DNA of 64,000 nucleotides from a virus. The DNA is taken from positions 186,001 to 250,000 of IMG/VR virus record IMGVR_UViG_3300038424_000251; one strand, given 5' to 3'. The notes under the pieces are model-generated. The model was not told the DNA's origin. It was given only the letters and a program-made list of their open reading frames with translations, and made no database searches. The position numbers were made by a program, and so were the translations under genes. Below are positions 50,023 through 52,615 of this stretch, in pieces. The number at the start of each line of letters is the position of its first letter. Positions within the stretch are counted from its first letter, which is position 1.

Positions 50023-50409
50023 ATGAAAAAAGCATTCACGTTGATTGAGTTAATGATTGTTGTTGCAATCCTTGGTCTTTTGGCTGCTATTGTTGTTGGT
50101 GGTAGCGGCGGTTGTAGTGTCAGTGATGGAACAAGAACAGGCACCATTTCAAAATTCAGTAACAAAGGCATCTTTGTCAAATCGCATGAGGGTGAATTGA
50201 TTTTGGGCGGTGTTATTCAAGGTAAGTCAGCATCGGCTAACGTTTGGGAATTCAGTTGCTTAAATCAGTCATTGGTCCCTGCTCTTGAGTCTGCGGTGGA
50301 TAATGGTAACATGGTTTCTTTGAAATATCATCAAACACTTTTGTATAATCCATTCCGAAGAAACACAAGTTATTTGATTACCAGTGTCACGGTGGTAACA
50401 AACAGGTAA
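50023..50409 (+). CDS. Type IV pilin-like signal fused to a small phage domain
   Basis: 128 residues. The first 30 residues are a textbook type IV prepilin leader and helix: KKAFTLIELMIVVAILG with the Phe after the short basic leader and Glu at +5. A Gly-Gly-Cys-Ser follows, then a beta-rich domain starting SVSDGTRTGTISKFSNKG and continuing with EGELILGG and WEFSC, a domain seen as a small lipoprotein in other phages and bacteria. The pilin-type N-terminus could be processed by host prepilin peptidase and anchor the domain at the inner membrane. Unusual fusion. Confidence 0.75.
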   Translation: MKKAFTLIELMIVVAILGLLAAIVVGGSGGCSVSDGTRTGTISKFSNKGIFVKSHEGELILGGVIQGKSASANVWEFSCLNQSLVPALESAVDNGNMVSLKYHQTLLYNPFRRNTSYLITSVTVVTNR

Positions 50410-50492: not shown

Positions 50493-50684
50493 ATGCCAGA
50501 TAATTTCATAAGAAACCGCGAAGGTAAAATCATTGGTCGCCAAGATGGCAATTGGCTTCGTGATGGTAGTGGAAAGCTTGTTGCTAGACATGATAAGGGT
50601 GATAATCGAACCAGAACGCGTGAAGGTAAAATTGTAGGTTCTGGTGACCAGAGATTGAGGGAATTAGGAAAATCAGAGGCTTGA
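50493..50684 (+). CDS. Small repeat protein (REGKI-type motif)
   Basis: 63 residues with three short repeats of the form REGKIIGRQDG / GSGKLVARHDKG / REGKIVGSGD. Highly charged, no hydrophobic core. Stop TGA lies in the -35 of the giant RNA promoter. Confidence 0.65.
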   Translation: MPDNFIRNREGKIIGRQDGNWLRDGSGKLVARHDKGDNRTRTREGKIVGSGDQRLRELGKSEA

Positions 50685-50708
50685 CATTTTTTGGTTCTTT
50701 GATACTAT
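50681..50708 (+). promoter_or_regulatory. Promoter for the giant structured RNA
   Basis: TTGACA, 16-nt spacer, TGATACTAT; predicted RNA start near 50715. Confidence 0.83.
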
Positions 50709-50714
50709 TTATTC

Positions 50715-51600
50715 GTTGTCCAGTGGTAAAAGTCGCCGGTGAGCGATGTTCCCATTGGAATTAGCCAAAGCTGGGAGATGACTAGAACGTGACAGTAAAG
50801 CGTTCTTAGCTTAAATAAAAGCGCCGGGAACAAATACCGAAACACCGGAGACAGTTGAAACCCAATTGTTAGGAAAAGAGAGTAAGAAGATTACTCGTGG
50901 CCGCTAAGCGACCCGAAGGTTGAGACTACAACGTATCGGCGTAATGCTGATGGTAATGTGGAAAGAAATGAATGCTCCGAAAGGGGCCGTCTGGAGTCGG
51001 CTAAGTAAGAAACTTGGTCCATGCCGGTCTAAGTTTCTGAGGATGACCAGATGAAATTGTAGAGGCTGTATTGCCGATTGGCTGAAAGCGGCAACTTTCA
51101 TAACCAATCATCCAGCCCATGAATTTTTTGTTGGCATATAGGTTCCTGAATAAGGACATTTAGGTTGGCTCAAACCCTTAAAGATTCCTACCTGCTACCG
51201 TGAACCACCAACAAAGCTTGATAATCTATTAAGTTGTGATAAGATAATTTTTTGTTGGTGAAAACAGTAAGCTGCTGCGAGGGTAATGCAAGACGATATT
51301 GTTTCCTCTAAAACTCTCCATCAATAAAAGACGTTCTTTGAATAATTTTGTGTTCCGTGACTGAGTAACTGCTACCGTTAGCAGTAAAGTAACATGAAGG
51401 TGAAGAATCTTTATGGATACGAAAGTAGCCGGAGTAAGTAAGGTAAAGGATGACTAAGTAGGCCAACTGAAAAATCCTTTGTAATCACGCTAATAAGCCA
51501 TAACGGCGTGGTTTAGGAATCGACGGGTTCCAACTGACTGAATAACTGAAAGGTAAGAATAGTCGAAGGTAACAAGCGAATCCTTCCGGAACGCATTTGA
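50715..51600 (+). ncRNA. Giant structured RNA, GOLLD/ROOL-like, upstream of tRNA-fMet
   Basis: About 885 nt with no rightward ORF, GC-richer than the surrounding genes, starting just after a promoter and ending immediately before tRNA-fMet. Many stems are visible: AGAAACTT/AAGTTTCT (51008-51015, 51031-51038), TGCCG/CGGCA (51072-51076, 51089-51093), ACTGCTA/TAGCAGT (51368-51374, 51379-51385) with a 4-nt loop, and TTGTTGG at 51128 and again at 51252 that can both pair with CCAACAA at 51208. Large ornate RNAs of the GOLLD and ROOL classes are known beside tRNA genes in phages; size and context fit, but I cannot verify the class without covariance models. Confidence 0.78.
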
Positions 51601-51602
51601 AT

Positions 51603-51679
51603 AGCGGGGTGGAGCAGCTCGGTAGCTCGTCACGCTCATAACGTGAAGGTCGCTGGTTCAAATCCAGCCCCCGCAACCA
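51603..51679 (+). tRNA. Initiator tRNA-fMet (anticodon CAT)
   Basis: 77 nt with encoded CCA. Strong resemblance to E. coli tRNA-fMet (GCGGGGTGGAGCAG start, CCCCGCAACCA end). It has the initiator hallmarks of an unpaired position 1:72 (A:A here, C:A in E. coli) and a purine 11:pyrimidine 24 pair. It lacks the usual three G:C pairs next to the anticodon loop: the stem is TCACG/CGTGA. Loop CTCATAA. T stem GCTGG/CCAGC. Confidence 0.9.
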
Positions 51680-51686
51680 ATTTTGT

Positions 51687-51751
51687 CGGTGATAGGTAGA
51701 AGCAGCAGTCGGTGTTAGTTATTTGCGCTCCCTATCACCGGCGCCCTTTTT
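51687..51751 (+). terminator. Terminator-like hairpin after tRNA-fMet
   Basis: Perfect 10-bp stem CGGTGATAGG/CCTATCACCG (51687-51696, 51731-51740) with a 34-nt loop, followed by GCGCCCTTTTT. It may end the giant RNA plus tRNA transcript. Confidence 0.7.
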
Positions 51752-51937
51752 ATGGGATTATTCGGAAAATTATTAAAAACCGGCTTCGATGTGGTAACAG
51801 CGCCCATTGAAGTTGCGAAAGATGCAGTAACTCTTGGTGGGTTGTGCACCGATGAAGAAGAGACTTATACGAGTCAACGATTGAAACGTCTTCAAAAGGA
51901 TAGCGAAGAAATTCGAGAAGAAATTGACGAGCTGTAA
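51752..51937 (+). CDS. Small conserved phage-type protein
   Basis: 61 residues; GLFGKLLKTGFDVVTAPIEVAKDAVTLGG opening is a pattern often seen in small phage/prophage proteins of unknown role, then a charged helix. Starts straight after the hairpin T-run. Confidence 0.65.
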   Translation: MGLFGKLLKTGFDVVTAPIEVAKDAVTLGGLCTDEEETYTSQRLKRLQKDSEEIREEIDEL

Positions 51938-51987
51938 CTCATTAAAATTTTTGTAGTTTTCATCTTCCGGGGACTACTTATTCATGT

Positions 51988-52060
51988 GCGGACTTGGTGT
52001 TCTGGAGCACGGCAGGCTTCCAGCTTGCAGGGAAAGGTTCGATTCCTTTAGTTCGCTCCA
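51988..52060 (+). tRNA. tRNA-Gly (anticodon TCC)
   Basis: 73 nt with encoded CCA. 7-bp acceptor (one G-T), D stem GTGT/GCAC, anticodon stem GCAGG/CTTGC with one G-T and loop CTTCCAG, T stem AAAGG/CCTTT with loop TTCGATT. Reads GGA. Confidence 0.88.
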
Positions 52061-52064
52061 CAAT

Positions 52065-52143
52065 GGCCCTATATAGACTAATTGGATAGGTCGCAAGCCC
52101 TTCAAGCTTGAGAACGTGGGTTCAAATCCCCGTGGGGCTACCA
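52065..52143 (+). tRNA. Degenerate tRNA, Glu-like (anticodon TTC)
   Basis: 79 nt with encoded CCA, 4 nt after tRNA-Gly. Acceptor GGCCCTA/TGGGGCT pairs, D stem GACT/GGTC and anticodon stem CAAGC/GCTTG are good. Oddities: four instead of two nucleotides between acceptor and D stem, C instead of T at position 33, and a bulged T in the T stem. By pairing the anticodon is TTC (Glu). It may be decaying or deliberately unusual. Confidence 0.6.
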
Positions 52144-52177
52144 CCCTATACTACGGGTGCCCCACATTAATTTTGTT

Positions 52178-52615
52178 TTAGGCTGGTGGGTTGTAAGATT
52201 CAAGTTGAATTGCTCCTGAACTGGAGATGCGATTGCGTAGGAATTTCTTGAATTGATAACTATACTTACCGTTATCTTCTTCAGTCCGCTCCAATCCAAC
52301 CAGATATTTTTCATTCAATGAAATAACTTGAACAATACGGAACTTGTCCCAATCTCCACGGTGAGGATAACGAAATGATACAATTACAATTGGTTTTTTT
52401 GTTGCATCGGGTTTGGTAGTGATTACTGCTCTTGAAACTGATTGCTTCGTATGGCGTCTGCGGAAGAAAATATAATTAGTATAATGGCGGACTGGTTTTC
52501 CAATGGAGTTATGAGTCTTCGCGATTATTGAAGGATTGATTATGTTTTGATAAATGTCACCTTCACGAATTATTTCATCCGATTTAAGTTTTCGATAGTT
52601 ATCTGGAATTTTCAT
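52178..52615 (-). CDS. Unknown protein
   Basis: 145 residues, beta-rich with basic central part. No family recognised. Own promoter with about a 3-nt leader. Confidence 0.68.
   Translation of the reverse strand: MKIPDNYRKLKSDEIIREGDIYQNIINPSIIAKTHNSIGKPVRHYTNYIFFRRRHTKQSVSRAVITTKPDATKKPIVIVSFRYPHRGDWDKFRIVQVISLNEKYLVGLERTEEDNGKYSYQFKKFLRNRISSSGAIQLESYNPPA

Follow-up and report, generated by a model that had tools for sequence, protein, structure and literature searches.

The DNA that we analyzed (the window) is a stretch of 64,000 nucleotides, G000:C1:186001-250000 of a virus record of 365,299 bases with 33% G+C, in whose genome ARAGORN finds 53 tRNA genes. At positions 50,681 to 51,679 of the window, a promoter, a long region without coding capacity and a tRNA-Met gene follow one another on the plus strand. 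The features of the locus, in window coordinates, are as follows.

50493-50684, plus strand: small 63-aa ORF with NREGKIIG repeats, the upstream neighbor, outside the RNA; kept in four relatives
50681-50708, plus strand: sigma70-type promoter TTGACA-16-TACTAT with an extended -10 (upstream TG), of the phage's own promoter family
50715-51592, plus strand: large structured non-coding RNA of ~880 nt, its ends predicted by promoter position and by the final conserved helix
50720-50758, plus strand: 5′ hairpin enclosing an inner hairpin, also conserved in G043
50766-51351, plus strand: variable middle, not alignable between relatives
51128-51258, plus strand: TTGTTGG/CCAACAA repeats, local to the window phage, no conserved switch
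51218-51245, plus strand: possible internal promoter, TTGATA-16-TAAGAT, weak, inside the RNA
51352-51592, plus strand: conserved 3′ domain of 241 nt, closed by GUUCCG/CGGAAC, with 11 helices and 67 pairs
51569-51580, plus strand: loop of the last hairpin, approximately GUAACAAGCGA, invariant in all three sequences of the family
51603-51679, plus strand: tRNA-Met(CAU), initiator-like, 10 nt 3′ of the RNA, with an A1:A72 mismatch
51685-51751, plus strand: hairpin element 3′ of tRNA-Met, conserved in G043
51988-52060: tRNA-Gly, 308 nt past tRNA-Met and behind a small ORF (51752-51937)
52065-52143: weak tRNA-Glu, 34.9 bits

The promoter belongs to a type, TTGAC(A/T)-16-TANNAT, that has 86 matches in the genome, many of them with a T/A-rich spacer and a position a few bases 5′ of an ATG. 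A counterpart lies at the equal position in the related loci L195, L186, L187 and L193 and in the related genome G043. We rejected TTGTTGG as a general start-site motif of these promoters, as it accompanies only one of the 86.

An initial annotation of the sequence had described ~885 nt without a rightward ORF and with a family promoter, and both parts were borne out. All three plus-strand frames of 50715-51602 are closed, with 20-30 stops per frame and a longest open stretch of 48 codons, and ORFs on the minus strand across the RNA region do not exceed 67 aa. No conserved protein ORF, which the annotation had named as evidence against an RNA, crosses the region. The stretch that holds the RNA (236407-238180 of the record) is the second-longest in the genome without an ORF of at least 70 codons, and its G+C content of 43% is the highest among ORF-free stretches of at least 450 nt. 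Upstream, at 50023-50409, a small ORF carries a prokaryotic N-terminal methylation (pilin-type) motif.

The annotation had also placed three tRNAs directly after the RNA. This is accurate for tRNA-Met; tRNA-Gly is separated from it by the small ORF and tRNA-Glu lies beyond, the latter being the tRNA that had been called degenerate. tRNA-Met carries the 1:72 mismatch that is a mark of initiator tRNAs (A1 at 51603, A72 at 51675). Its anticodon stem reads UCACG/CGUGA and lacks the three G:C pairs of an initiator. In the window phage only, the hairpin 3′ of tRNA-Met, which spans 51685-51742, is followed by TTTTT, a U-run absent in G043, and the two elements together probably form the transcript end in this phage. 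At L195:11355-11630, 3′ of the tRNA-Met of that locus, ~270 nt are ORF-poor and apparently structured and end in a T-run.

Homologues and conserved structure of the RNA

Similarity at the DNA level did not lead to homologues. Searches of GenBank phages matched the tRNA alone and, with the other homologues as queries, returned nothing. An exact 22-mer had a sole match in IMG/VR, a contig with identical sequence wherever the two overlap, and no homologue was detected by DNA comparison in 36 records that encode related terminases. After these failures, homologues surfaced through syntenic tRNA intervals and neighboring proteins. A terminase search yielded related phages, in which tRNA mapping revealed a shared order, tRNA-Arg ... 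tRNA-Met ... tRNA-Glu, and the upstream small ORF, together with a helicase further upstream, led to the locus in L186, L187 (part of G019), L193 and L195 (part of G037). In G030 and G026 the tRNA order is kept, but the slot holds only coding-type sequence.

L195 and the window RNA can be aligned in the promoter and the last 241 nt. A 16-base pattern taken from the last hairpin identified an extra relative, L204 (part of G043); pattern matches in L188 and L199 were rejected as chance, and a scan of genome contigs with the pattern gave 16 stretches, none convincing. A covariance model built from the window phage and L195 (model R1) matched L204 with 243 bits (E = 2e-96). The same model found no second copy in the genome of the window phage, and of 37 records that it was run against, 35 gave no hit. 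The family as we define it thus comprises three sequences, from the window phage, L195 and L204, all metagenomic and none from a cultured phage. The order promoter, RNA, tRNA-Met is common to all three, with tRNA-Met on the same strand, and the 63-aa ORF was not found at the G043 locus. The gap between RNA and tRNA-Met is 10 nt in the window phage, ~63 nt in L195, where it contains a promoter-like site, and ~85 nt in G043, where it contains an extra hairpin.

The initial annotation had proposed that homologues be aligned and examined for covariation. In the 3′ domain, which is 75-83% identical among the three phages, 21 of the 67 pairs show changes on both sides, and 98% of pair cells are standard, a percentage flattered by the fact that the structure used for counting was itself predicted from these three sequences. 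The alignment itself was built by sequence, without fitting to structure. Shuffles gave 8.1 ± 2.2 double-changed pairs and reached 21 in none of 500 trials, while slid controls gave 0-3. With shuffled columns, the number of covarying pairs averaged 4.4 with a maximum of 11, compared to 21 in the real alignment. RNAalifold assigned the alignment an energy of -75.7. The opposite strand gave -42.6, and shuffling of columns within conservation classes gave -37.4 ± 4.3 (z = -8.9).

Conservation extends to the loops. Among unpaired columns of the 3′ domain 87 of 111 are invariant, versus 80 of 134 paired columns, as would be expected if loops contact tertiary sites or partners. The invariant loop of the last hairpin is a candidate for such a tertiary or ligand contact. 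At the other end of the RNA, the 5′ hairpin keeps 14 of 14 pairs in G043, with two double changes. The region between these elements varies in length from ~590 nt in the window phage to ~200 nt in G043. It includes the TTGTTGG copies at 51128 and 51252 and the CCAACAA at 51208, which are present as the initial annotation reported; the alternative pairing that it suggested for them did not hold up, as G043 lacks this part of the RNA and L195 does not preserve it.

Folding of the single sequence gave a minimum free energy of -255.5 kcal/mol for the whole RNA, with z of about -3.4 to -3.6. Since z was equal or lower in 5 of 36 random windows of the same genome (the energy itself was lower in none), we dropped single-sequence folding as weak evidence. 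The decisive support for RNA structure is covariation, not folding energy alone. The annotated giant structured RNA before an initiator tRNA is therefore upheld by a structure conserved, with compensatory changes, in three phages.

Relation to GOLLD, ROOL and other known families

Because the initial annotation had called the RNA GOLLD/ROOL-like and proposed a search with the covariance models of both families, we compared the locus with Rfam. The whole window, searched with all 4227 models, contained matches to tRNAs only, and a permissive scan of 50500-52200 to E = 5 added only matches at chance level. At the RNA locus, the GOLLD model (RF02032; curated gathering score 150 bits) found nothing at E ≤ 10. 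The ROOL model (RF03087; 99.1 bits) likewise had no match there, in a search in which no positive control matched either. Membership in GOLLD or ROOL thus fails on the covariance models, and the resemblance is one of kind, confined to size and setting. The annotation had anticipated a new class if known models did not match, and the lack of any Rfam match, combined with structure conserved in three phages, agrees with this. We found no earlier description of the RNA in the open-access literature.

A true GOLLD is present in the same genome. It lies at G000:C1:267988-268453 (locus L228), scores 165.5 bits, above the cut-off, and is located within the main tRNA array, outside the window and ~31 kb past the window RNA. 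A promoter of the same type lies ~600 nt upstream of it (267374). By blastn, the best pieces shared by the two RNAs are at most 16 nt long and not significant. Thus, this phage appears to encode another giant RNA in addition to GOLLD, with no similarity between the two that we could detect. GOLLD had no match in 11 further related records, most of them fragments and none with a matching control. The genome also encodes a tmRNA (G000:C1:260388-260791, L179; RF00023, 103.6 bits), outside the window; with GOLLD, the tmRNA and 53 tRNAs in one genome, translation-linked RNA can be considered a theme of the window phage.

GOLLD is a large phage RNA of ~0.8-1 kb that lies near tRNA genes, has a conserved 3′ region and a variable 5′ region, and binds ribosomes in pull-downs (PMC12286853). 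ROOL, a large RNA of phages and prophages that is often near tRNA islands, has no known protein partner (PMC12286853). The window RNA resembles both in being a large phage RNA with tRNAs nearby, and differs from both in lacking a covariance-model match and from GOLLD also in sequence. As in GOLLD, its 3′ part, here the 241-nt domain, is conserved and the rest less so. By this analogy, the RNA is best read as built on the GOLLD plan, with a variable 5′ part and a conserved 3′ domain, although the sequences differ and a true GOLLD coexists in the genome. GOLLD forms a homo-oligomeric nanocage (14-mer) and its expression is raised during lysis. What the window RNA has in common with large structured phage non-coding RNAs in general is a structure with compensatory changes and the absence of a conserved protein-coding frame.

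Taken at the level of sequence comparison, the anatomy of the gene, its conserved structure and locus, and its independence from GOLLD are established, and we conclude that the window RNA is almost certainly genuine, has a conserved structure and belongs to no known family. It is very unlikely to be a highly divergent GOLLD or ROOL missed by the Rfam models. The similar size, phage setting and tRNA neighbor, and for GOLLD the shared plan, would fit such an origin, but this reading is largely refuted by the absence of matches to either model, also in the permissive scan, and for GOLLD by the bona fide member elsewhere in the genome with which blastn finds only short pieces in common. Since mobile elements are drawn to tRNA arrays, and the middle region is highly divergent among relatives, we also considered a remnant of a mobile element or intron (group I/II, HEARO-like) or a decayed coding region. 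This appears extremely unlikely, as there is no match to intron or HEARO models and no ORF, the position and strand before tRNA-Met are fixed in all carriers, and the compensatory changes indicate selection on the fold. The chance that the region is ordinary non-coding spacer, structured by accident, is close to negligible: its single-sequence folding energy is unexceptional within the genome, but the covariation and strand-specific alignment energy refute chance, and a 243-bit model match with conserved synteny also speaks against it.

The slot before tRNA-Met and a proposed role of the RNA

In L186, L187 and L193, a different structured RNA, which we call type A, lies between the promoter and tRNA-Met. 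It occupies the same place (tRNA-Arg, small ORF, promoter, RNA, tRNA-Met) and, like the window RNA, combines conserved blocks with variable inserted hairpins and shows compensatory changes; in type A the blocks are nearly identical, with the hairpins inserted between them. Model R1 detected only tRNAs and noise at these loci, and pairwise similarity between type A and window-type RNAs is at shuffle level except for a single 5′ match of 30 nt that L193 shares with L195. On this sequence evidence we treat type A as a positional counterpart of the window RNA. Type A contains a conserved internal promoter-like site, TTGACA-N17-TATAAT, and promoter-like sites inside or 3′ of the RNA occur at L195 as well as at the three type A loci.

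As the size, setting and plan of the window RNA are as reported for GOLLD, we propose a free scaffold acting on translation. One transcript would run from the phage promoter through the RNA into the initiator tRNA, and the RNA would be released when RNase P cuts at the 5′ end of the tRNA. The freed and abundant RNA could then serve as a scaffold in the takeover of translation during infection, as proposed for GOLLD and ROOL. We hold with moderate confidence that, taken as a whole, a new family of giant phage RNAs acting as scaffolds is the best explanation; the free-scaffold mechanism, drawn by analogy, is a more tentative part of it.

The main rival is that the RNA is a structured leader of the tRNA-fMet transcript, which serves to time, protect or regulate how the initiator tRNA is made or processed and does not exist as a separate RNA. 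The 10-nt gap in the window phage and the shared promoter fit a leader, as do the conserved element 3′ of the tRNA and the three related phages in which a structured RNA of another sequence separates a promoter from the same tRNA-Met. We nonetheless consider a leader fairly unlikely. The spacing between RNA and tRNA varies (10, ~63 and ~85 nt), and a 241-nt domain with 11 helices and highly invariant loops seems to exceed what a leader would need. Due to the longer gaps in L195 and G043 and the promoter-like site in L195, coupling of RNA and tRNA appears loose, and the two need not be one unit.

A bolder reading is that the RNA represents a new class of giant ornate phage RNAs whose structure is unrelated to that of GOLLD or ROOL, and that it forms an RNA assembly of its own and, with the phage initiator tRNA, redirects translation initiation. 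We regard this as rather improbable. If true, a clade of jumbo phages would have a single slot in front of tRNA-fMet that is occupied by large RNAs of separate origins, and one phage would run two giant RNAs at once. To our knowledge, few RNAs of such size and complexity have been found in bacteria and their viruses. An extra family before an initiator tRNA, in the same genome as GOLLD, would provide another independent system in which to study the function of giant phage RNAs, and its placement points to translation initiation as one process to examine. With its 241 nt, the 3′ domain is small enough to be probed and to have its structure determined.

Two further observations concern the tRNA genes of these phages. 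The genome of the window phage has a tRNA gene with anticodon CUA (G000:C1:266814-266888, assigned by ARAGORN as Pyl), also found in G019 and G037, which is possibly an amber suppressor. Between tRNA-Met and tRNA-Glu, the three type A loci carry a second structured RNA of ~122 nt (L187:4430-4550, L186:3942-4063, L193:5863-5983), which had no Rfam match in scans covering the loci and in which 9 of 36 pairs show compensatory changes.
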